From: Rothia uropygialis
GTDB taxonomy: Bacteria > Actinomycetota > Actinomycetes > Actinomycetales > Micrococcaceae
NCBI RefSeq assembly: GCF_004137765.1
Contig: NZ_NOIS01000004.1
Coordinates: 124,001-188,000, forward strand
Direction: 5' to 3'
Length of the DNA stretch: 64,000 bases
Part shown: in pieces, positions 30,415 to 49,309 of the stretch
How the letters are laid out: every line of letters starts with the position of its first letter
How positions within the stretch are numbered: the stretch's first letter is position 1
Translations under genes and position numbers: made by a program
The notes under the pieces: generated by a model
Databases searched by the model: none
The model's input: the letters and a program-made list of their open reading frames with translations, nothing else
What the model was told of the DNA's origin: nothing

Positions 30415-30430
30415 AGTGGTTCTGATCACT
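30415..30430. promoter_or_regulatory. DasR/NagR-like operator between divergent PTS genes
   Basis: AGTGGTTCTGATCACT agrees with the streptomycete DasR site form AGTGGTCTAGACCACT at 12 of 16 positions. It lies 44 bases before EIIB and 89 bases before EIIC, the right place to control both. The HutC-type GntR gene 290 bases downstream is the likely reader. Confidence 0.6.
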
Positions 30431-35368: not shown

Positions 35369-36055
35369 ATGATAAACATCAACCCGAGTTTTAAAGCCCG
35401 GACTCCCTACATCTTCCATTTCGACGAGCAGACGGTCGTCTTGGGGGATCCCGAGTACCTGAAACAGGTTGAGACGTTCCTTCTCACTGCGGACCTGGCG
35501 ACGCGCACCACCTACTGGGACACGGACGAGGAAGACCCCCTCGACTTCGACCCGGATCCCGAGCCCGAAGACATGAACAGCGTCGGCATTGAAGGCGACG
35601 AGCGGGTCTTCTGGAACGCCATCGAATCGGCGATTTTCCAACAGACCGAATGGCCCGAGGGCGAGGACGCCGTGGTGTACGCACCTCACGTGCCCGAGTG
35701 GTTGTCCCATGCTCAGTCATGGTATTTCGATCCCGTGTGCCCCCCACTGGGCCCGGGCGGACCTGGCGGTTGGGTTCGACGTCGTTCCGTGGACGGCCGC
35801 GGTTATCCGGTGGGCCTGTTCCAACTCACCGAAGCGGATTCCTTCTGGGTCTTCGCGGCCGAAGACGATCTCTCCGACATCATGGAACTCTGCCGGTCCC
35901 TTGCCCGCTTCCGGATCGGTTTCGACCAGGTCACGCCGTACATTGGGCCGGATGACTCGGTCGGTTCCTTGGCCCTGCCCATAGAATGCCGGGATGCTCT
36001 CCAGGAAGAGCTCATGATCAGGGGCGTGGACGTCGAATCGATGTTCTGGGAATGA
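35369..36055 (+). CDS. Conserved-looking hypothetical protein following the nuclease-helicase
   Basis: Acidic protein of 228 residues I do not recognise. It is rich in Trp, Asp, Glu and Pro (DEEDPLDFDPDPEPED stretch near residue 62; WFDPVCPPLG-like aromatic segment in the middle) and ends VESMFWE. No membrane segment or signal is visible. I prefer ATG at 35369 with AGGAGG five bases upstream; an ATG at 35324 overlapping the nuclease-helicase stop is the alternative. It overlaps the nuclease-helicase gene or follows it closely, so a linked role is possible. Its 3' end overlaps the convergent nagA end by 38 bases (36018-36055). Confidence 0.75.
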   Translation: MININPSFKARTPYIFHFDEQTVVLGDPEYLKQVETFLLTADLATRTTYWDTDEEDPLDFDPDPEPEDMNSVGIEGDERVFWNAIESAIFQQTEWPEGEDAVVYAPHVPEWLSHAQSWYFDPVCPPLGPGGPGGWVRRRSVDGRGYPVGLFQLTEADSFWVFAAEDDLSDIMELCRSLARFRIGFDQVTPYIGPDDSVGSLALPIECRDALQEELMIRGVDVESMFWE

Positions 36056-37238
36056 GGTTCCGGACCGGCACCAGATCCGTGTCCAGGAGCCGAAGCTGCA
36101 GACCGTCACCCCATGGGGTCAGTCCCACGGCTCTGGCTGGCCGGGTCGAGGCCGCCGTCAACGCCTCATCTACGTCGATACCGGCCCTGACCACGGTGCG
36201 CACCGCCTGGTCCATGGTCAGCGTCGAACCCGCAATGGCGCCTTGGCTGCCATCCGAGGTGGTCAGCCGAGCGATGCCGTCGTCCACCCGCACGTCCAAG
36301 GAACCGAGCCGGTAGTCGCCATCGGATTGCCCGGTGGCGGACATCGCATCGGTAATGAGCACGACCCGTCCGGGCAAGGACCGAAACAACATCGCGATCA
36401 CCTCGGGGGCGACGTGCACCCCGTCAGCTATGACCTCGGCGACCACATGCGGTGACTCCATCGCGGCAACCACGGGACCGGGGTGCCTGTGGTGGATGCC
36501 GTTCATGGCGTTGAATGCATGCGTCAGAATCGACGCGCCGGCGTCGAAAGCCCGGCGCGCGGTCTCGTAGTCGGCGTCCGTGTGACCCACGGCCACGCGA
36601 ACGCCCTGGTCCACGAGGAACCTGGTCACCGCGAGGCCCTCGTCCATCTCAGGAGCAAGGGTGACCTGGCGCAAATACCCGTCGGCCGCGTCGAGGAGGC
36701 GTTGGGCCTGGTCCAGCGTTGCCGGTTGGAGGTAATCCCGCCGGTGTGCGCCCTTGTGCGACGGCGAGAGCCACGGCCCCTCGGCGTGGATCCCTTCCAA
36801 CCGCAAACCGGTGGGAATGCCTTCGCCTGTCGAGATCGCCCGGGCCACGCGCCGGAAAGATTCCTCCAGCTGGCCCACCGGGTTGGCGACGAACGAAGCC
36901 AACGCCCGCCCGGTCCCCTGATCCTTGTGCACCGACAACGAAGTCGGCAAACTCTCGGGGTCCTCGTACGCGAATCCCCCCGCGCCGTGACAATGGATGT
37001 CAGTAAACGGGGCTGTCAAGAACATGCCCGACGCATCGAATGGTCGCGACGCAGTCGCGCTTCGGGTGTTCTGATGGTACGAGTCCCCCAGGCCACCGCG
37101 AACCGGGACGCCGGCGTCGTCGCACTCGACCCATACCGGCCCGGCCCCCGTCGTCAACGCCTCGGCCGGGACACCGGCAAAAACTGGCACGTCCCTTAGG
37201 GTTTCGGTTGGACGCGCGTTGTGGATCACAATATTCAT
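36018..37238 (-). CDS. nagA: N-acetylglucosamine-6-phosphate deacetylase
   Basis: Converts GlcNAc-6-phosphate to glucosamine-6-phosphate and acetate, the step where GlcNAc, MurNAc and sialic acid routes join. The 406 residues show FTDIHCHGAGG near residue 70, GLRLEGIHAEGPWLS near 130, AVGHTDADY near 210, LTHAFNAM near 231, and the catalytic Asp in LITDAMSATG near 285. ATG at 37238 (MNIVIHNARP) was chosen because AAGGAC precedes it and the regulator stop is 4 bases upstream; the longer reading would run back into the regulator. It forms an operon with the upstream GntR gene. Confidence 0.95.
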   Translation of the reverse strand: MNIVIHNARPTETLRDVPVFAGVPAEALTTGAGPVWVECDDAGVPVRGGLGDSYHQNTRSATASRPFDASGMFLTAPFTDIHCHGAGGFAYEDPESLPTSLSVHKDQGTGRALASFVANPVGQLEESFRRVARAISTGEGIPTGLRLEGIHAEGPWLSPSHKGAHRRDYLQPATLDQAQRLLDAADGYLRQVTLAPEMDEGLAVTRFLVDQGVRVAVGHTDADYETARRAFDAGASILTHAFNAMNGIHHRHPGPVVAAMESPHVVAEVIADGVHVAPEVIAMLFRSLPGRVVLITDAMSATGQSDGDYRLGSLDVRVDDGIARLTTSDGSQGAIAGSTLTMDQAVRTVVRAGIDVDEALTAASTRPARAVGLTPWGDGLQLRLLDTDLVPVRNLIPRTSIRRPRP

Positions 37239-37242
37239 GACT

Positions 37243-37974
37243 TCAGTCCTTCGATTCGCGGACGACGCTGAGGTCGAATCCGTACCGGTCCGCGCGGTAG
37301 GTCGTCTCTGTGCATTCGACAAGCCGTCCCAGAGCATCACGAGCTTGTCGCTCGACGCGGAGCGCTGCTGCACCGACCGGTTGCGACAGCAGGGTGGCTT
37401 CCTCGAACCCGAGGTTGACGGCCCGGATCGACTGATCCGCGAATTCCACGCGGTGGCCCCGGCGCGATAGCTGCTCGTCGAGCGAACCACCAGGATCGGG
37501 CAGGATGCCGCCAAAAAACGTCAGGGGAATGCACGCCAGCTCGAGCGCCATAGGCAGGCCATCCGCGAGTCTCAACCGGTGGATGCGTGCCAGATCCTCC
37601 CCCACGGCCACATTCAGCCGCTCGGCCAGGTCCTCGTCCGCCGCGACGACGTCGTTGCCGAGGGTCTCGCTCGACGGCCGGTGCCCCCGCTCATCCATGT
37701 CCTCCGAGAACGAGGTCAGCCTCAGGCCCTTGCGAATCACGCTGGGGTCCGCGATATAGGTACCGGAACCGCGGACCGAGTACACCGCGCCCGAGGCAAT
37801 CAGATGCGCAATGGCCCGACGCACGGTTGCCCGGCTCACGCCGTACTCCTCCTGCAAAGACCGCTCGGTCGGCAGCACCTGGTGCGGTTCACCCGCAGCG
37901 ACGACGTCGGTCTCCAGAGCGGCCGCCAGCGACAGGTACTTCGGCACGATCGTTGCATTCCTTGCGGCCGCCAT
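37243..37974 (-). CDS. GntR/HutC-family regulator of nag genes (NagR-like)
   Basis: Regulator of 243 residues with a winged helix near residues 30-80 (LPTERSLQEEYGVSRATVRR) and a UTRA ligand domain to the C-terminus. It lies directly upstream of nagA (4-base gap) and diverges from nagB. The gap holds two copies of an ATTGGT-N4-ACCAA(T/A) palindrome, one before each gene. GlcN-6-P or GlcNAc-6-P is the expected ligand. ATG at 37974 has GGTGG upstream; longer in-frame readings cross the operators and nagB. It is a paralogue of the regulator at 30722, with a different predicted site. Confidence 0.9.
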   Translation of the reverse strand: MAAARNATIVPKYLSLAAALETDVVAAGEPHQVLPTERSLQEEYGVSRATVRRAIAHLIASGAVYSVRGSGTYIADPSVIRKGLRLTSFSEDMDERGHRPSSETLGNDVVAADEDLAERLNVAVGEDLARIHRLRLADGLPMALELACIPLTFFGGILPDPGGSLDEQLSRRGHRVEFADQSIRAVNLGFEEATLLSQPVGAAALRVERQARDALGRLVECTETTYRADRYGFDLSVVRESKD

Positions 37975-37997
37975 CGAACACCACCCATCGATTGAAT

Positions 37998-38013
37998 ATT
38001 GGTACGCACCAAA
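37998..38013. promoter_or_regulatory. NagR-type operator 1
   Basis: ATTGGT-ACGC-ACCAAA, a 16-base near-palindrome 24 bases before the GntR (nagR-like) start. It pairs with the copy at 38040. Confidence 0.65.
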
Positions 38014-38039
38014 CATACACGGATCATTCAATGAGGAAT

Positions 38040-38055
38040 ATTGGTCCGTACCAAT
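38040..38055. promoter_or_regulatory. NagR-type operator 2
   Basis: ATTGGT-CCGT-ACCAAT has perfect six-base arms. It lies 28 bases before nagB and overlaps where the -35 box would be for the -10-like TAGAGT at 38071-38076. The start-to-start distance to operator 1 is 42 bases, four helical turns, so two dimers could sit on one DNA face. Confidence 0.7.
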
Positions 38056-38082
38056 TTGGATGAAACACGGTAGAGTGAAGAC

Positions 38083-38862
38083 ATGGAAATCATCGTTGCT
38101 GCTGATCCCGAAGCCGTCGGCCACGTTGCGGCGCATCGCATCGCCCAACTCGTTCGGAGGAAGCCGAATGCGGTTCTCGGTGTCGCGACCGGTTCGAGCC
38201 CCGTCCCCACTTACCAGGCACTCGAAAAAAGGGTGCGCGACGGCCTGGACGTGTCCCGGGTCAGCGCTTTTGCCCTGGATGAATACGTCGGCCTGACCGA
38301 GGGCCACCCCCAGAGCTATGCTGAGGTCGTGCGAAGGGACGTGACGGAGAGGCTCGGGCTCGACCCCGAGCGGGTGCACGTGCCGAAGGGCCACGCAGAG
38401 GATGTGCCTGCGGCCTGCGAGGAGTACGAGGACGCGATTCGTTCCGCCGGGGGCGTCGATCTTCAGATTCTGGGCATCGGAAGCAACGGGCACATCGGCT
38501 TCAACGAGCCAAGTTCCTCGCTCTCGGGCAGGACCCGCGTCAAAACCCTCACGCCCACCACACGGCGGGACAATGCCCGCTTCTTTGACGACGACCTCTC
38601 CAAGGTGCCTACCCACTGCATCACCCAGGGCATTGGCACGATTCTGGACGCCGACGTCGCACTGCTCGTCGCTTCGGGCGAGGGCAAGGCCGACGCCGTG
38701 GCGGCCATGGCCGAGGGCCCCGTGGGCGCGTTCTGCCCAGCCACCGCGTTACAAATGCATCGCCGCGCGGTCGTCGTCGTGGACGAAGCCGCGGCGTCCA
38801 AGCTCAAGAACCGAGAGTACTACGACTTCGTCAGGGACAACCGGCCGATCTGGCAGCTCTGA
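38083..38862 (+). CDS. nagB: Glucosamine-6-phosphate deaminase
   Basis: Converts glucosamine-6-phosphate to fructose-6-phosphate and ammonia, passing amino-sugar carbon into glycolysis. The 259 residues carry LGVATGSSPVPTY near residue 32, FALDEYVGL near 64, and ILGIGSNGHIGFNEP near 128, with the active-site His and Glu in the last. ATG at 38083. It diverges from the nagR-nagA operon under a shared pair of operators and is convergent with nanE, with 193 non-coding bases between that hold no clear intrinsic terminator. Confidence 0.96.
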   Translation: MEIIVAADPEAVGHVAAHRIAQLVRRKPNAVLGVATGSSPVPTYQALEKRVRDGLDVSRVSAFALDEYVGLTEGHPQSYAEVVRRDVTERLGLDPERVHVPKGHAEDVPAACEEYEDAIRSAGGVDLQILGIGSNGHIGFNEPSSSLSGRTRVKTLTPTTRRDNARFFDDDLSKVPTHCITQGIGTILDADVALLVASGEGKADAVAAMAEGPVGAFCPATALQMHRRAVVVVDEAAASKLKNREYYDFVRDNRPIWQL

Positions 38863-41685: not shown

Positions 41686-41710
41686 GTGTTCTCCTTAGGG
41701 GTAGGTCTCG

Positions 41711-44053
41711 TTAAAGCGAGATCAGGGATTGGCGCGACTCTTCGAGCCAAGACAACGGAATGCGGGTGAAGTAGATGCCGTGCCATTCCCTCTCCCACAA
41801 CAGCCCGATCGATCCGTCGCTCAGTTGCGCCATGGATTGATAGACGTAGTGGCGGGGGTTGAACACTTTGTTGTGGGGCCAGGTTCGGCCGTCGTCGTAG
41901 GAAAGCCGCAGTACCCCGCAGCCTCGGAACGGCAACAACTGAGAGGCGTTCGCGAAGACGACGCCGCGGCCTTTCTCGGTCTTGAGCGCAACCGCATTGG
42001 GCTGGCTGAAGATCTCGGTCAGCTGAGGATCGAAGTCGACGGGTCCCCACGTCCGGCCGCCGTCTTTGCTCCGGGACCGAGCCACACGACCACTGCTGTT
42101 CTGATTGCGCATGAGCAGCACGAGGTCACCGCTCTCGGCCTCGAAGACAGTGGATTCGTGGAGGGAAGCAGCATCACAGCTCAGCGTCCTGGAATGGACG
42201 GTCTGTCCGTCGATCTCCCGGTCGTCATTCGGCGATTCGCCGAGGGACCAGGTGGCTCCGCCATCATCGGAGTACACGACCGCCGCGGAGAAGGTGATGT
42301 TCTCCTCGCGGTTGTAGTAAACGGGCATGACCAATCGGCCCGCGTGCGGCCCCTTCTCGATCTGGATCCCGGAGCCGGGGGACGTACCCAAGAAGCGCAT
42401 CCATGGTTGCTTGACCTGCGGCGTGATGTCCACCGGCTCGCTCCAGGTCTCACCGTCGTCGTCGCTCGCAATCATCCAGAGGTAGCAGCTGGGAAGTGGG
42501 CGAAGCGGTGGGTTGCTCGTGTATGCCCAGACGTTGCCTTGATCCTCGCCGTCACGAAGAACCGTCCCGTCCTTTTGGACCCGGTATTCGGTGGGTGTTC
42601 CATCTTCTCGAAGAACTTTTCCGTCCTCCTGGAGATGGTATTCATCACCCTCAGCGTCTGTCAGGATCAGATGACCCGCGTCGTTGAAACCGGTGCCGAG
42701 CGCGGCATTCGGTTGGCCAACGCCACCGGGGAAATGGTCGATCAGGACGACTATCCTGCCGGTTGACCTGTCCTCAACCAACAAGGAATCGATGACCGAT
42801 GCGCCTTCCGGGCCTTCACCTGGCGAAGAGATGACGGTTTGCAGGTCCTCCCACGTCTCGCCGTCGTCGAGGCTTCTGCGGATCACGAAATTGATGTGGT
42901 TCGGGCTGTCATTGGCTATGGCCGTCCGCTGATCCGCTCCGGCTATGAGCACGCCACTCTGCGTCCGCAGAAGAGATGGAATCCGGTAACTCACGGAACC
43001 GAGCATTCCCGTGTCGAAAAGTGCGTTCGTATCGAGAGGGTCGACCATCGAGAGTCTCTTGACTTGTGCATCGGAGAGGATTTGGTCGAAGACCATCGCG
43101 GTCGAGGCCTCACCGAAGAGTCGGGAGCCTCCGATGTCCATTCCCACGGCGACGATGTCGACGTCCGGGACATCGTGGAAGAAAGCAACGCCCGGCGCCC
43201 GACCGACCTGAAAACCGTCCACGTAGATGATGGTCGCGCCGTATCCGGAGGTCACAACGACGTCGTGCCACCCTCCGTCATCCCAATTGCCTGGGGCGAC
43301 CACATCCACGAGCGCTCGACCACCGGCAACCACGCTGTAGCGCAAGTCCCCGGAATCGATCCGCAGGGTCACGGCATGCTTTTCCGGGTCTTGTGTCTCG
43401 GTGCCACCCTGGAGGATGACTCCGCCTTGGTGACGACCCCTCACCCGGAATCTGGCCCGCAGGGATCCGGCGGAAAGGCTGGCGCAGCGGCGGGCATCGC
43501 GATCCGCGAGCCTCTCTGCGGCGAACTCGACCAGAGGCCGCGTTTCTTCGGTACGCGCCAAGACCCCGCGCGGCGTCAGGATGTCGGAACGGATGATCAG
43601 GTGGGAGACTTCCGGCACTCCCTCCCGGCCCACCTCGAGGCATCCAAGCTCACCAAGCCCCGCAAAGAAGCTTGTATCGGTTGCGGTGAAGAGCTCGTAC
43701 CCGTCCAGGAAGATGGAGGTCCCGCTGGGCCCGACCACGACGGCGACGTCGTGCTCCCGTCCGTCATTGAGCCGGTCAGCATCTTCGGCATCGAGGAAGG
43801 ACGAGACCTTGCCGTCAACGGTCACACGGCGAATCAGGCGATTCCGCTCGATCACCAATTCCCACTCCGCGCTCTCATCGGCAGCGCGCGCCGACAGCAA
43901 CGTGCCGTCGACGAGTGTCGCGAACTTCAGCAGAATCGTTCCCTTGCTGAGCCCCTGCAGCGGATCCAGCCGCTGAGCCATCGCACGATTGATGTCGGCG
44001 CAGGAACCGGCTTCGTCCACCAGAACCCCGCTGCCGTACAGCGATGCTTCCAT
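41711..44053 (-). CDS. Exo-alpha-sialidase (GH33) without signal peptide, predicted cytoplasmic
   Basis: Sialidase of 780 residues. Two LamG/concanavalin-like modules come first (about residues 30-190 and 205-350; FLDGYEL and YVDGFQVGR strands). The GH33 propeller follows: SYRIPSLL, Asp boxes SLDDGETW, SDDDGETW, SDDGGATW, SKDGGRTW and SYDDGRTW, a late YVYQSM Tyr and EWHGIYFTRIP. A DG-rich insertion near residues 490-535 resembles the insert of NanI/NanB-type sialidases. ATG at 44053 has GGAGG seven bases upstream. No signal peptide or anchor is present, and the upstream in-frame extension has none either. First gene of the nan operon, under a palindrome shared with nanT. Sialylated oligosaccharides taken up whole would be its substrate. 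Confidence 0.9.
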   Translation of the reverse strand: MEASLYGSGVLVDEAGSCADINRAMAQRLDPLQGLSKGTILLKFATLVDGTLLSARAADESAEWELVIERNRLIRRVTVDGKVSSFLDAEDADRLNDGREHDVAVVVGPSGTSIFLDGYELFTATDTSFFAGLGELGCLEVGREGVPEVSHLIIRSDILTPRGVLARTEETRPLVEFAAERLADRDARRCASLSAGSLRARFRVRGRHQGGVILQGGTETQDPEKHAVTLRIDSGDLRYSVVAGGRALVDVVAPGNWDDGGWHDVVVTSGYGATIIYVDGFQVGRAPGVAFFHDVPDVDIVAVGMDIGGSRLFGEASTAMVFDQILSDAQVKRLSMVDPLDTNALFDTGMLGSVSYRIPSLLRTQSGVLIAGADQRTAIANDSPNHINFVIRRSLDDGETWEDLQTVISSPGEGPEGASVIDSLLVEDRSTGRIVVLIDHFPGGVGQPNAALGTGFNDAGHLILTDAEGDEYHLQEDGKVLREDGTPTEYRVQKDGTVLRDGEDQGNVWAYTSNPPLRPLPSCYLWMIASDDDGETWSEPVDITPQVKQPWMRFLGTSPGSGIQIEKGPHAGRLVMPVYYNREENITFSAAVVYSDDGGATWSLGESPNDDREIDGQTVHSRTLSCDAASLHESTVFEAESGDLVLLMRNQNSSGRVARSRSKDGGRTWGPVDFDPQLTEIFSQPNAVALKTEKGRGVVFANASQLLPFRGCGVLRLSYDDGRTWPHNKVFNPRHYVYQSMAQLSDGSIGLLWEREWHGIYFTRIPLSWLEESRQSLISL

Positions 44054-44100
44054 GACAATTCCTCCGTTTAAAGAAGCTTTCAATAGGGTGCCCTCCAACA

Positions 44101-44116
44101 CATAGGACATCCTATG
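44101..44116. promoter_or_regulatory. Sialic-acid regulon operator A
   Basis: CATAGGA-CA-TCCTATG, perfect seven-base arms, 47 bases before the cytoplasmic sialidase. The same core TAGGAC(A/G)TCCTA recurs before nanT and the ABC binding protein. Confidence 0.75.
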
Positions 44117-44121
44117 ACTGC

Positions 44122-44149
44122 ACTCTAACACCTCGTTTAACACCGGCAA
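44122..44149 (-). promoter_or_regulatory. Candidate promoter of sialidase-nanA-nanK-nanE
   Basis: On the minus strand TTGCCG (44144-44149) and TAGAGT (44122-44127) are separated by 16 bases. The operator at 44101-44116 would then lie over the transcription start, as for a repressor. Confidence 0.45.
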
Positions 44150-44179
44150 GAGGATGCCCTTCCGAGCCCAAGTTGGATA

Positions 44180-44208
44180 TTGACCCGGCTCACTCAACCT
44201 GCTATTTT
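44180..44208 (+). promoter_or_regulatory. Candidate promoter of nanT
   Basis: TTGACC (44180-44185), a 17-base spacer and TATTTT (44203-44208). The operator copy at 44214-44227 follows within six bases of the -10. Confidence 0.6.
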
Positions 44209-44213
44209 CACCC

Positions 44214-44227
44214 GTAGGACGTCCTAC
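44214..44227. promoter_or_regulatory. Sialic-acid regulon operator B
   Basis: GTAGGAC-GTCCTAC is a perfect 14-base palindrome covering the likely start of the nanT transcript. It differs from operator A only in the two central bases and the outer flank. Confidence 0.75.
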
Positions 44228-44287
44228 CTATGACTGACATCTCATTCGCGGCCGGCTGACGGCCTTCAAAGCAAGGATCTCTTGGTC

Positions 44288-45778
44288 ATGAGTTCTCCTC
44301 ATACTTCGCCTCATACTTCCCCTCGGACCGGGAAACGTTGGTGGCAGCACCTCAGCGCACAGGACAGGAAATCGTTCTTCGCAGCGTGGCTTGGCGTTCT
44401 CCTGGACGGTTACGACTTCGTTCTCATCTCTTTCGCCCTTCCCGCGATGATCGAGACCTTCGACCTCACTCTCGTCCAGGGTGCTTCGTTAGTCTCCGCG
44501 GCCTTCATTACCCGCTGGCTCGGTGGGCTCGTTCTGGGTGCCGTCGGTGACAAGTTCGGCAGGCGCCCGGCTATGGTCGTCTCAATCCTCATGTTCGCTA
44601 TTGCTTCCATAGGCATGGCTTTCGCCCCGAACTACTGGTTCCTCTTCGTCTTCCGTCTCATCATCGGGTTTGCCATGGCGGGCGAGTACTCCGCCTCGGC
44701 CGCATACGTCATCGAGTCATGGCCCAAGCACATGCGCAACAAGGCCTCCGGTTTCCTGCTGTCCGGATACGCCTTCGGCGTCGTCCTCGCGGCCCAGGTC
44801 GACAAGTACCTCGTGCCCTGGGCCGAGCAGTTCGGTCACGGCTGGGGATGGCGGGCCCTGTACCTGACGGGCATTGTTCCCATCGTCGTCGCTATCTACA
44901 TGCGCCGTTCTCTCCCCGAAGCCAAGGATTGGGAGGAATCCAAGAAGACAGGAACGACCAAGGAAGCCGACATGCTCACGACGCTGTTCGGCGGCCCGAA
45001 GAAGTTCCTCAACCTCCTCGGCACCGTGGCGGCTGCGGTCTCCCTCCTGCTCATTTTCGCCGGCTTCGGGCTTCCCAGGTATGCCGTGATCCTTCTGGCC
45101 GCTGTGTCGGCCGCGGTCTTCATCGCCTTCATCATCCAGTTCGACAAGAAGCGCTGGGCCACCGGGATAGGCATTGTCCTGACGGTCTTCGCGAGCTTCA
45201 TGTACACCTGGCCGATTCAGGGTCTATTGCCGACATACCTCAAGGGAGTTGGCATGGACCCGAACGTGGTGGCCAATATCGTCACCATCGCGGGCTTGGG
45301 CAATGCCCTTGGCTATATCGTGGCCGGTTTCGCGGGGGACACCGTCGGCATGCGCCGCTGGTACGCCATCAGCCTGACCATCTCCCAGGTCCTCGTGTTC
45401 CCCCTGTTCCTGCAGAACGGCAAGTACGTGGTCCTGGTCGGGATTCTGCTTTTCTTCAACCAGATGTTCGGTCAGGGCATCTCCGGGCTCCTGCCCAAGT
45501 GGGTTTCCAGCTACTTCCCGGTCGAGAAGCGAGCGGCCGGCTTGGGCTTCACCTACAACGTGGGCGCCCTGGGTGGCGCGGTCGGCCCGATTCTCGGTGC
45601 GAGCCTGGCGGATAAGTTCTCCCTGGGCACCGCCCTGGCGGTGCTCTCCGTGGGATTCGCCCTCTTCGTCATCCTGTCCATCTGGCTGAACCTGCCCCGT
45701 AGGGCCCAGTCGGCCGTATCGGCTGAGAGCGTTCGCCCGGAAGACGGAAACGACGAAATCATCGCTACCACGGCCTGA
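44288..45778 (+). CDS. nanT: MFS sialic acid transporter NanT-like
   Basis: Major facilitator of 496 residues with twelve or more membrane segments, sugar-porter/NanT branch. It has LLDGYDFVLISFALPA near residue 38, GDKFGRRPAMV near 87, the FRLIIGFAMAGEYSASAAYVIESWP region near 125 and SGLLPKWVSSYFP near 400. A free sialic acid proton symporter is expected from its place next to nanA-nanK-nanE and the shared operator. I use ATG at 44288; a TTG six bases upstream is equally spaced from the AAGGA. The secreted sialidase gene follows after 90 bases, so one transcript is likely. Confidence 0.88.
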   Translation: MSSPHTSPHTSPRTGKRWWQHLSAQDRKSFFAAWLGVLLDGYDFVLISFALPAMIETFDLTLVQGASLVSAAFITRWLGGLVLGAVGDKFGRRPAMVVSILMFAIASIGMAFAPNYWFLFVFRLIIGFAMAGEYSASAAYVIESWPKHMRNKASGFLLSGYAFGVVLAAQVDKYLVPWAEQFGHGWGWRALYLTGIVPIVVAIYMRRSLPEAKDWEESKKTGTTKEADMLTTLFGGPKKFLNLLGTVAAAVSLLLIFAGFGLPRYAVILLAAVSAAVFIAFIIQFDKKRWATGIGIVLTVFASFMYTWPIQGLLPTYLKGVGMDPNVVANIVTIAGLGNALGYIVAGFAGDTVGMRRWYAISLTISQVLVFPLFLQNGKYVVLVGILLFFNQMFGQGISGLLPKWVSSYFPVEKRAAGLGFTYNVGALGGAVGPILGASLADKFSLGTALAVLSVGFALFVILSIWLNLPRRAQSAVSAESVRPEDGNDEIIATTA

Positions 45779-45868
45779 CTCGTCGACTCACGTCTGATCC
45801 CCATTTCTTCACCACTTCATCTCCTCATGCCTCGGTGTTGCACAAAAACTCCCGAGGGAAGGAACATC

Positions 45869-48388
45869 ATGAACCCACCTGTGAATCGCCGACAATTCTT
45901 TGCCGGAGGGGCAGCGGTAGCTTGCCTCGCTCTGATGCCAACACCCAGCCTGGCCGAATCTGCCGAAGAAACGGCTCCCGGATTCCCCATGGAATTCGAT
46001 GGGAAGTCTTTCCACGATCTCGCGGCGGCCAAGGACAATTTCACTGTCAGACCGATGACGCTGAGCATTCAGTTCAAGACTTCGCCCGGCTCCGGTGGCA
46101 CGCTCCTGAGTGCAGGAGACAGCGGCTCCCCGGACATCTGGAAGTTGGGAATCGACAGCGGCCACGTCGTCATCTCCGAATCTTCGTCAGGCAAGAAAAC
46201 CGAGGGACGCTTTCCCGTGCCTTCGGATCGGCGAGGAGAGTTGGACGACGGCAATCTTCATTGGGTCACCCTACGGTGTGAGGAATCAGGAACCTCGCTC
46301 TACGTGGATGGCCAATGGGCCCATGCGTTCACACGGGATTACTCGCTGTTCGCATGGGGTAATCCAAACGTACTCACCGCTGGTGCCGTCAGGAATCGAA
46401 GTAGCGCGAGCGAGTTTTTCACTGGTTCGATACGGGCGATCTCATGCACCCCGACTGCTCTGACCGATGAAATTATCGCCGCCCGCTGCACGCTACCGGA
46501 CACGAAGAGCAAGTGGACCCCCTTCCTGGCCTATTCGGCCTCCGCGCCACTGGTCAACCGCTTCACTGAGGTTCCGGGGCTCCAGTCGTGGGACAAAGGA
46601 ACGGTGTTCGCGGAATTCAGCACCACGAGCTCAGGCACCATGGCAATCATGAGCTTGGGAGACACCCGGGCCGAATCTACGGACTTTTGTCTGGCCCTCA
46701 AGGATGGGCAACTTGTCGTGGAGCACCGGTCCAAAGGCACGAACAACATGAAGTTCACCGTTGCCTCCCAGCTCAACGACGGGAAGAGGCACTCCGTGTG
46801 TGCTGCTGTTTCCGAACGCGGCACCCGTATTTACATCGATGGCTCAGAAGTTGAGCGCCACTCGCACCACAGTTTCGCTTCATCTCTCGACGACTTGAAT
46901 GGACTATGGATTGGCGGGAATACGGATATTCACGGCGAGGAATGGAAATTCACCGGCCGCATTGGAAGAGTCAAGATCTTCCCTTGGGCGCTCACGTCGC
47001 AGCAGATCGCAGGCTTGGCGGAACAACCGGTGATCAGCGCCCAAGCCCTCTTCGACAAGGGGTATGCCGGCTCATCGAATTACAGGATTCCCGCTCTCAC
47101 CATGACGAGCGCCGGTACTTTGATCGCCGTAGCCGACCAACGCACTTCGAACCCGATGGACAGCCCCAACCACATTCAGACGACCTGCCGTCGCAGTACC
47201 GACGGCGGTCGAACGTGGTCCGCGCTTCAGACAATTCTGCCCCAGCCAGGCGCCGGCCGGGCTGGGGCATCAGCGATCGACTCCACAATTGTGCAAGATT
47301 CCAGGTCTGGAAAACTGGTGGCTGTCATCGATCGATTCCCCGGAGGTTTTGGACAAGGAAACTGCGCACCGGGAACCGGGTACGACGAAAATGGGCTCAA
47401 GATCCTTTTTGACCAGGCCGGAGAAGAATTCCGTTTGCATGACGACGGTTCCGTGACCAGGAAAGACGGGTCGGCAACCAGCTACAGAGTCGCAGGGGAT
47501 GGCTCCGTGACACGAGACGGAGCTGATAAGGGCAATATTCACCTGCCGAAAGAAGCCACCGCCCTCGGAGGGTTGTTCGAGCACGAAACGTCGTATCTCG
47601 TGATGGTGACCAGCAGCGACGACGGCCAGTCCTGGGGCAATCCGAAGGACATCACTCATCAGGTCAAAGAGCCGTGGATGAGATTTTTGGGGACGGGCCC
47701 TGGAAGCGCGATTCAACTCACGGCGGAGAAGAACCGAGGCCGCATCGTTGTTCCGGTCTACTACAACAACGCGAAGTCTATGGCTGGTATCTATTCCAGC
47801 GCAGTCATCTACACGGACGATGCCGGTGCCACCTGGCACCGGGGAAAGTCCCCCAACGACGGTCGCGTGGTCAACGGAACAACGATTTCCTCGGAAACGC
47901 TGAACACGATGTCACTCGCGACTCACGAACCTTCGGTCGCGGAAAGGGCTGACGGAACGCTGGTGATGTACATGCGCAACAGGGCCCCGGGTGGGAAAGT
48001 GCTCTCTTCGCGCAGCTCCGACGGTGGCGAGACTTGGGATGTGCCGACACCGGTAGACAACGTGCCCGATATTTTCTCTCAACCCAATCTGATCAACGGC
48101 AAGGATCCGAGCTCCGGCGAGAGCCGCATGTTCTTTTCGAACGCCAGCAAGACCTTCCCCGGTGAGGACGGGAGAAACACGCGGGGACGCGGTGTCATCC
48201 GAATGTCGGTCGACGATTCCGCGACCTGGGGCCGGAACAGGGTCTTCCGGGCCAATAACTATGTATATTCCAGCATGATTCAGTTCCCGGATGGCGATCT
48301 TGGCTTGCTCTGGGAATTGGAGTGGGACGGTATCTACTTCTCTCGGATCCCTTATCGATGGATCGCGGACTATCCCGTCGTGAGATAA
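45869..48388 (+). CDS. Secreted exo-alpha-sialidase (GH33) with Tat signal
   Basis: Sialidase of 839 residues with a twin-arginine signal (VNRRQFFAGGAAVACLA, cleavage probably after SLAE near residue 33). Two LamG-like modules (about residues 45-190 and 215-375) precede the GH33 propeller: NYRIPALT, Asp boxes STDGGRTW, SSDDGQSW, TDDAGATW, SSDGGETW and a late NYVYSSM Tyr with EWDGIYFSRIP. The same DG-rich insertion as in the cytoplasmic sialidase is present near residue 530, so the two are paralogues. No sorting signal was seen, so release or loose wall binding is likely. It frees sialic acid outside for NanT. ATG at 45869 has AAGGAA upstream. Confidence 0.92.
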   Translation: MNPPVNRRQFFAGGAAVACLALMPTPSLAESAEETAPGFPMEFDGKSFHDLAAAKDNFTVRPMTLSIQFKTSPGSGGTLLSAGDSGSPDIWKLGIDSGHVVISESSSGKKTEGRFPVPSDRRGELDDGNLHWVTLRCEESGTSLYVDGQWAHAFTRDYSLFAWGNPNVLTAGAVRNRSSASEFFTGSIRAISCTPTALTDEIIAARCTLPDTKSKWTPFLAYSASAPLVNRFTEVPGLQSWDKGTVFAEFSTTSSGTMAIMSLGDTRAESTDFCLALKDGQLVVEHRSKGTNNMKFTVASQLNDGKRHSVCAAVSERGTRIYIDGSEVERHSHHSFASSLDDLNGLWIGGNTDIHGEEWKFTGRIGRVKIFPWALTSQQIAGLAEQPVISAQALFDKGYAGSSNYRIPALTMTSAGTLIAVADQRTSNPMDSPNHIQTTCRRSTDGGRTWSALQTILPQPGAGRAGASAIDSTIVQDSRSGKLVAVIDRFPGGFGQGNCAPGTGYDENGLKILFDQAGEEFRLHDDGSVTRKDGSATSYRVAGDGSVTRDGADKGNIHLPKEATALGGLFEHETSYLVMVTSSDDGQSWGNPKDITHQVKEPWMRFLGTGPGSAIQLTAEKNRGRIVVPVYYNNAKSMAGIYSSAVIYTDDAGATWHRGKSPNDGRVVNGTTISSETLNTMSLATHEPSVAERADGTLVMYMRNRAPGGKVLSSRSSDGGETWDVPTPVDNVPDIFSQPNLINGKDPSSGESRMFFSNASKTFPGEDGRNTRGRGVIRMSVDDSATWGRNRVFRANNYVYSSMIQFPDGDLGLLWELEWDGIYFSRIPYRWIADYPVVR

Positions 48389-48414
48389 GCCCAGCCGCAG
48401 GCTGGCACGGCAAT

Positions 48415-48447
48415 GCGCCCGCTCGAAGGAATTCTTCGAGCGGGCGC
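48415..48447 (+). terminator. Terminator-like hairpin after secreted sialidase
   Basis: A perfect 14-base stem (48415-48428 with 48434-48447, GCGCCCGCTCGAAG arm) and a five-base loop GAATT, followed by TTGTCTCATT. The weak T tract leaves efficiency uncertain. A smaller hairpin, CCAGCC-GCA-GGCTGG, lies just upstream. Confidence 0.75.
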
Positions 48448-48499
48448 TTGTCTCATTGTCCTCAGAAGACCACCAGGTTCGCCGTAGCGGGTTCGGCCC

Positions 48500-49309
48500 T
48501 CAGCTCAGAAACGTCGGAGCTGCCTTCAACAAATTCACTGTGTATTCGGAGGACGGATTGCCCAAGACATCCTCCGCAGACCCTTGCTCGACGGCCTTCC
48601 CCTTGGTCATGACCAAGAGATCGTCGGATATATGGCGGACGGTCTGAATATCGTGGGAGATGAAGACCATTCCCAGATTGAGCTCTTTCTTCAGGTCGAT
48701 GAGGAGGTTGAGCACCTGAGCGCGGACGGAGACGTCCAGGGCGCTCGTGGGCTCGTCGGCCACGATGACCTCCGGGTCGAGGGCGAGCGCTCGGGCGATG
48801 GCCACGCGCTGCCGCTGACCGCCCGAGAGCTGGGCGGGTACGGCTTCGGCCGCCGAGGTCGGAAGCCCGACCAGATCGAGCAGCTCGTACACACGGTCCG
48901 ATCGGCTGGATGTGGGCCCCATCCCATGCACGTCCATGGGATCTTTGACGATATCGTGCGTGGTCATTCGGGGATTCAACGCGGTCGAGGCGTTCTGGAA
49001 GATCATGGTGACGGCTTTGCCGAATTTCTTGCGATCCGCGGCCCCCGTGCCCACGGGCTTTCCGCGGTACAGCAACTCACCGCCCGTGGGCTCTTGCAGA
49101 CCCACGATGACGTTCGCGAGGGTCGTCTTACCCGATCCGGATTCCCCGACTATGCCTACGGTACGACCGCTCAGGACGTCCAGGGAGATTCCGTCGACGG
49201 CTTTGACGACGTTGCGCTTGAACAGGGACCCGGTGCGCGTCGTGAAGTGGACCTTCAGGTCCTTAAGGGACAGAACGGCTTCGTCCGTCCGGGATGCCGT
49301 GGCACTCAT
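48500..49309 (-). CDS. ABC transporter ATPase, Dpp/Opp type (SiaI-like)
   Basis: ATP-binding subunit of 269 residues. Walker A is GESGSGKT near residue 53, the signature LSGGQRQRVAIARAL near 165, Walker B VIVADEPTSALD near 185, and the His switch ISHD near 219. The C-terminal region matches oligopeptide-transporter ATPases (OppF/DppF group). The start overlaps the stop of the fused permease-ATPase gene (ATGA, 49306-49309). In Corynebacterium the SiaEFGI transporter for sialic acid has the same set of subunits. Last gene of the ABC operon, convergent with the secreted sialidase. Confidence 0.9.
   Translation of the reverse strand: MSATASRTDEAVLSLKDLKVHFTTRTGSLFKRNVVKAVDGISLDVLSGRTVGIVGESGSGKTTLANVIVGLQEPTGGELLYRGKPVGTGAADRKKFGKAVTMIFQNASTALNPRMTTHDIVKDPMDVHGMGPTSSRSDRVYELLDLVGLPTSAAEAVPAQLSGGQRQRVAIARALALDPEVIVADEPTSALDVSVRAQVLNLLIDLKKELNLGMVFISHDIQTVRHISDDLLVMTKGKAVEQGSAEDVLGNPSSEYTVNLLKAAPTFLS

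Follow-up and report, generated by a model that had tools for sequence, protein, structure and literature searches.

Two operators of NagC have reportedly been described in the nagE-nagBACD region of Escherichia coli by Plumbridge and Kolb in 1993. NagC is a ROK protein, unrelated to NagR, and its operators stand about nine helical turns apart and loop the DNA.

For the NagR of Bacillus subtilis (YvoA), those sections of PMC4333415 that deal with DNA and effector contacts report that G-5 and G-4 are read by Arg38 and Arg48, that the wing is anchored at G-7 by Gly69, and that the ligand is held by a set of phosphate and sugar contacts, with Tyr167 stacking on the sugar; the dre sites appear there as imperfect palindromes with GG in one half only. 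At the level of the subfamily, the operator sections of a comparative study (Suvorova 2015, PMC4494728) define the GntR/HutC operator as a palindrome in which GT and AC are 4 nt apart (NyGTN4ACNy), give TA as its usual center, and associate Asp at position 39 of the helix-turn-helix (HTH) with a preference for a G/C center. The same sections count 60 HutC double-site divergons (consensus NyGTMTAKACNy, center TA), in 32 of which the distance between sites is near-constant and is read as a sign of co-operation (PMC4494728). Helical-phase dependence has been tested for SiaR and CRP at the adjacent sialic acid operons nan-siaPT of Haemophilus influenzae, where, according to the relevant part of PMC2946308, GlcN-6-P is the effector.

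Here, we analyze two putative operators between nagR and nagB in a 64,000-nucleotide stretch of the Rothia uropygialis genome (the window). Among the literature matches listed, none was a study of this Rothia regulator, and those on actinobacterial HutC regulons contained nothing on it.

Results

Two palindromes between nagR and nagB

The nagR-type gene of the window (37243-37974, minus strand) encodes a regulator, P0001, with an N-terminal GntR winged HTH (PF00392, 1.1e-14) and a C-terminal UTRA domain (PF07702, 7.6e-34), both above the Pfam cut-offs, a combination that assigns it to the GntR/HutC subfamily. Its best matches among solved structures are DasR and YvoA/NagR, and the closest named relative of the host, Rothia koreensis JCM 15915, has a regulator that is 89% identical. 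Divergent from nagR is its proposed target nagB, which encodes glucosamine-6-phosphate deaminase (38083-38862, plus strand; NCBIfam NF001684, 3.8e-111, and TIGR00502, 7.5e-78, both above cut-off). Directly downstream of nagR, on the same strand, lies nagA, encoding N-acetylglucosamine-6-phosphate deacetylase (36018-37238; TIGR00221, 4.1e-67, just above cut-off); the remaining four Rothia of the window's clade have the same gene order, and nagA and nagR are presumably co-transcribed. A plasmid search returned 11 records, and the best 5 of 11 were nagB-like matches.

The start codons of nagR and nagB are separated by a gap of 108 bp (37975-38082), whose G+C content is 43.5% as against 61.8% for the window, and which houses both putative operators: O1, on the nagR side (ATTGGTACGCACCAAA, 37998-38013), and O2, on the nagB side and with perfect 6-bp arms (ATTGGTCCGTACCAAT, 38040-38055). 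Their starts are 42 bp apart, which at 10.5 bp per turn makes 4.0 turns. Each is a 16-mer that fits ATTGGTNNNNACCAAW without a mismatch, and both contain the GT-N4-AC arrangement of GntR/HutC operators, with GG at -5/-4 in both halves and T or A at +/-7. A 19-nt direct repeat, GAATATTGGTnCGnACCAA, has copies that are 89% identical, the GAAT part of which is not kept in relatives. The initial annotation had described two palindromes between these genes, 42 bases apart, and the sequence and coordinates are as it gave them; the pair, which it called near-identical, is real and is retained in relatives. It had, however, left the four central bases free, whereas they are NCGN in both sites of every one of the five species that make up the window's clade.

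The free-N4 consensus is weaker than this conserved form: it recovers 11 other places in the genome at 1 mismatch and, within the window, 9 rows at up to 2 mismatches, as against 4.0 for shuffles, of which 5 in 100 attain 9. With at most 1 mismatch allowed, WTTGGTNCGNACCAAW occurs in the 2,963,259-base genome at O1 and O2 only, so that the genome search for extra copies, which had been suggested as a check, yielded no third place within 1 mismatch; at 2 mismatches there are 25 further places, compared with 12 for a reversed-pattern control. Within the window, TTGGTNCGNACCAA has two exact copies, against none in 100 dinucleotide shuffles, and seven places at up to 2 mismatches against 2.0 expected.

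Promoter geometry

A strict sigma-70 consensus scan of both strands from 37900 to 38200 found no promoter. A putative nagB -10 (TAGAGT, 38071-38076, plus strand) has the form TAnnnT, which was present in all nine species read and stands 6 nt from the nagB start in seven of them and 7 nt in two; O2 lies 27 nt from that start in seven of the nine and 26 nt in two. With the TAnnnT hexamer at 38071-38076, the predicted nagB -35 region would fall in the right half of O2, and, counted from the putative -10, O2 would be centered near -35 and O1 near -77. With this arrangement, nagB mRNA is possibly leaderless, its transcript starting at or near the start codon. On the opposite strand, a putative nagR -10 (TATGTT, 38012-38017) lies within a conserved block, GTGTAT(G/C)TTTGG, that runs into O1; it would place the start near 38005, with O1 covering the predicted -10 and centered on the start point, and O2 near -42. 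The original proposal that one of the sites overlaps the nagB -35 region receives indirect support from the conserved TAnnnT/O2 geometry.

Conservation of the pair in relatives

We compared the gap among nine species having nagR and nagB divergent, namely the five Rothia of the window's clade (the window, R. koreensis [G209], G118, G216 and G195), three members of a second genus, g22 (G168, G180 and G199), and G033. From the 13 loci of the relative search, sites were taken from L047 (R. koreensis) alone; those of L061 (G209) duplicate those of L047 and were counted once.

Both O1 and O2 are present in all five Rothia, at spacings of 42, 42, 42, 42 and 43 bp, a conservation of length that suggests that the pair may work as a unit. 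Mean pairwise identity among the five is 93% for O1, 90% for O2 and 47% for the whole spacer, in which the 8 columns beside O1 are 87.5% identical and the remaining 19 columns 28%; the rest of the gap, at 50% identity on the nagB side and 52% on the nagR side, is above the 28% of these columns.

The second genus, in which this NagR was found at E <= 1e-40 in 3 of 15 genomes, also has two sites at nagB/nagR, here 63 bp apart. The second of these is within the nagR coding start (10/12 matches) and scores 13.2, 13.2 and 14.6 in the three species, above 95% shuffle levels that range from 5.3 to 5.9, yet lower in two of the three than the highest of 300 shuffles (15.6, 11.9 and 16.1). The spacing differs from that of Rothia by 21 bp, two turns, and represents one independent length change. 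In G033, where NagR is beside nagB, the two best places are again 63 bp apart, and both are degenerate (8/12) and outside 1 mismatch of the pattern; the first, at 12.9, equals the highest shuffle, the second, at 5.6, does not reach the 95% shuffle level (7.7), and this pair counts little. In G147 (L006), nagR precedes nagA, nagB is not adjacent, and there is a single site.

The regulator clade also contains 17 other Rothia NagR rows (L008-L012 and L063-L074; 41-46% identical, one 38%), in which no site was found at 9/12 matches and in which nagA and nagB are absent from the 1.5-kb flanks. All but one of these 17 regulators carry SRDTVR or SRDTIR, and their effector pocket mostly has Asp. In five Rothia with nagB but without an adjacent NagR, no site at >=9/12 precedes nagB, although three have places at 8/12.

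Searches of whole genomes at up to 1 mismatch added one place in G209 and one in G118, both inside open coding frames, and none beyond the pair in G216; among the matches listed there is also one further 1-mismatch place in G033 and one in G195 (contig 4). Single 1-mismatch matches at L031, L033 and L040 are, read by eye, unlike sugar-gene promoters. At up to 2 mismatches, places exceed those of the reversed control in G000 (27 against 12), G118 (31 against 12) and G195 (22 against 5), show little excess in G168 (21 against 17) and G180 (20 against 13), and none in G147 (25 against 26), G033 (15 against 18) and G059 (12 against 19).

Assignment of the sites to a regulator

The window encodes a second GntR/HutC regulator, P0002 (30722-31468, plus strand), which is 34% identical to P0001 and which we judge not to be the binder of O1 and O2. 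A dre-like site, AGTGGTTCTGATCACT (30415-30430), precedes the PTS/HutC-regulator operon to which it belongs, is itself preceded by a conserved TTATAACC block, and is separate from the O1/O2 pair. Six of 35 Rothia genomes have a P0002 orthologue (E <= 1e-45), and AGTGGTTCTGATCACT is letter-identical in five of the six. At 1 mismatch, the 30415-type pattern has three more places in G000 and one each in G118, G209, G216, G168 and G208, and the one in G208 lies, by its coordinates, near the P0002 orthologue of that genome.

The distribution of the two regulators separates their sites. In G208, the sixth genome with a P0002 orthologue, NagR gave no match at E <= 1e-40 and the nag-type pattern no place within 1 mismatch; this is good but not strict evidence, since that threshold also misses the weak sites of G033. 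G168, G180 and G199 have NagR and nag sites, and in them P0002 finds nothing closer than 36-37% identity. By these patterns of presence and absence, the nag sites go with NagR. A tree of 57 rows separates P0001 from both DasR and P0002: it is one of 27 rows that form a Micrococcaceae clade (100/97). DasR groups with L014-L016 (100/98), leaving P0001 outside the DasR orthologues, and YvoA, on a long branch, sits on the DasR/P0002 side and does not group with P0001. The initial annotation had tied the pair to the adjacent UTRA regulator (37243-37974), an assignment that the agreement between presence of sites and presence of NagR makes probable; it had also set the pair apart from the site at 30415 and its regulator, and this distinction stands on the separate, identical site of P0002, its separate branch and the same presence/absence patterns.

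DNA contacts and effector pocket of P0001

P0001 keeps the equivalents of Arg38, Arg48 and Gly69, the DNA-contacting residues of B. subtilis NagR, at aligned positions. HTH position 39 would correspond to residue 49, just after Arg48, which among the 27 clade rows is Asp in 21, Ala in five and Ser in one, the five with Ala being the window's own clade; P0002 has Ile here and YvoA has Met. The published association of Asp with a G/C center fits the sister clade, and with the window it is only compatible. The NagR clade also provides a test case for the rule that relates this HTH residue to the operator center. Two related regulators carrying SRATVR (L013 and L085) are encoded divergently from a gene that was taken by eye for an MFS-type sugar transporter and have two sites each, one centered on CG and one on AG.

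In the effector pocket, Arg133, Arg135, Glu145, Arg211, Glu222 and Tyr228 are kept and Thr90 is replaced by Ser. The pocket is not retained in full: the equivalent of Tyr167 is Asp166 in P0001, and Asp occupies this position in 25 of the 27 clade rows. GlcN-6-P and GlcNAc-6-P, assumed as ligands when the locus was annotated, continue as the natural candidates for the effector, with less certainty than that assumption carried, given the change from Tyr167 to Asp.

The neighboring sialic acid genes

In all four relatives (G118, G209, G216 and G195), nanE-nanK-nanA is followed directly by an ABC-transporter ATPase gene, whereas in the window the ATPase gene (48500-49309) is set off from them by about 6.8 kb (41686-48499) that carries two sialidase genes and the gene of a sialate MFS transporter. 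This segment is likely an insertion, the alternative being a loss in the four relatives; G+C content (60.0% in the segment, compared with 65.9% toward nag and 61.1% toward the ABC gene) says little. A perfect palindrome, GTAGGACGTCCTAC (44214-44227), lies where a sialidase gene diverges from the gene of the sialate transporter; it is a possible operator for a sialic acid regulator and was not found in the stretches of the four relatives, these being without that segment.

Discussion

Taken together, we consider it very probable that O1 and O2 are operators of the adjacent P0001 and that this protein exerts an autoregulated, NagR-type repression of nagR-nagA and nagB. Without amino-sugar phosphate, a dimer on O2 would block the nagB -35 and lie at the upstream boundary of the promoter of nagR, and a second dimer on O1 would cover the nagR -10 and start point, such that nagR-nagA and nagB would be repressed jointly and NagR would limit its own amount; an amino-sugar 6-phosphate in the UTRA domain would then move the DNA-binding domains and free both sites. 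From the features of the protein and its sites, we infer binding, repression and effector alike. The uniqueness of the sites, their conservation, their tracking of NagR and the kept contact residues all support P0001 as the binder. Counting against this account are the degenerate sites of G033, the position of the second g22 site inside the nagR coding start and its modest match, the 17 Rothia orthologues without a site, the presence of NagR in only 3 of 15 g22 genomes, Asp in place of Tyr167, Ala at residue 49 in the regulator's own clade and the lack of a sigma-70 consensus promoter.

Among other accounts of the pair, the least credible by far is that the palindromes are a chance product or a non-regulatory repeat of an AT-rich gap. 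The sequences are short and the gap is much poorer in G+C than the window, but exact copies were absent from all 100 shuffles, the genome holds only two sites, and these are kept in five species, with a second genus having such sites at a different spacing; in view of this genome-wide scarcity and conservation, we reject a chance origin. Binding of O1 and O2 by P0002, or by both HutC regulators, is quite unlikely, even though P0002 is of the same subfamily, has the same Arg/Arg/Gly contact residues and shares TGGT half-sites between its own site and the nag-type sites: that site is identical in five species, in G208 P0002 is present and no nag-type site was found within 1 mismatch, g22 has nag sites without a P0002 orthologue, and residue 49 (Ile, as against Ala or Asp) differs, as do the site centers.

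A much stronger contender, to which we give somewhat less than an even chance, is that the two operators act independently, O2 for nagB and O1 for nagR, and that the 42 bp reflect promoter packing with no contact between dimers. Each site is naturally placed for its own predicted promoter; O2 keeps a fixed distance to the nagB start (26-27 nt, 9/9 species), while its distance to O1 varies between clades; the two sites of a related regulator, at L085, are 108 bp apart, 10.3 turns, not in phase; and, in the sections of Suvorova (2015, PMC4494728) on such arrangements, 28 of the 60 double-site divergons are of the independent type. Set against this, the spacer sequence is essentially randomized, yet its length has changed by only 1 bp, in a single species among the five; the difference to the other clade, 21 bp, amounts to two turns; and g22 combines a smaller gap (73 bp, by eye) with a larger spacing, which is thus not simply growing with the gap. 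Our confidence in P0001-mediated repression and in independent operators need not total one, because the former chiefly concerns the protein and its genes.

Within repression by P0001, a spacing of 42 bp would place both dimers on the same face of the DNA, and cooperation between them is plausible. The fixed length and the two-turn shift are consistent with same-face cooperation, though promoter geometry could explain part of the pattern. As a general rule, helical phasing is weakened by L085; at L013 the spacing is 74 bp, or 7.0 turns. The most elaborate version, a phase-locked two-dimer switch in which the operator pair would jump by whole turns (from 42 to 63 bp) with one face kept, the Asp would shift NagR toward the cationic GlcN-6-P, the substrate of NagB, and P0002 would sense GlcNAc-6-P, strikes us as improbable; if true, two HutC paralogues would split one sugar signal, with the GlcNAc-6-P of P0002 serving uptake. 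The series of 42, 43 and 63 bp with a randomized spacer offers a natural test of the need for helical phase in the HutC subfamily. The analysis also assigns a probable operator to the Rothia regulator and sets apart the likely regulatory circuits of the two HutC paralogues, which are encoded about 6 kb from each other.

Comparison with known systems

The nagR-nagB pair is a HutC double-site divergon, a type already described, in which the gene for the transcription factor is divergent from its target and two sites lie between them, as in Rothia; its center here is CG. Its spacing has the near-constancy of the co-operative type in the Rothia clade, and with 63 bp in g22 it is constant within clades only. 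B. subtilis NagR belongs, like P0001, to the GntR/HutC subfamily, has Arg38, Arg48, Gly69 and most pocket residues in common with it, and shares TGGT half-sites and nag targets with the Rothia pair. The Rothia sites differ from the B. subtilis dre sites in having GG in both halves, NCGN in place of an idealized CTAG center and T/A instead of G/C at +/-7, and in being paired; their regulator differs in having Asp for Tyr167. Streptomyces DasR, a best solved-structure match, is of the same subfamily as P0001. The sites upstream of the DasR-side regulators L014-L016 have a TA center (ATAG/CTAG), as opposed to CG in Rothia, and the genome search, in which no third place came within 1 mismatch, gives no sign of a global regulon for P0001, a further difference from DasR.

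The two remaining systems resemble the Rothia locus in function. E. coli NagC works alike, as an amino-sugar-phosphate sensor with two operators between divergent nag genes, and a spacing of 42 bp would seem insufficient for a loop of the NagC kind. SiaR and CRP are two different proteins, whereas in Rothia a single protein is proposed to occupy two near-identical sites.
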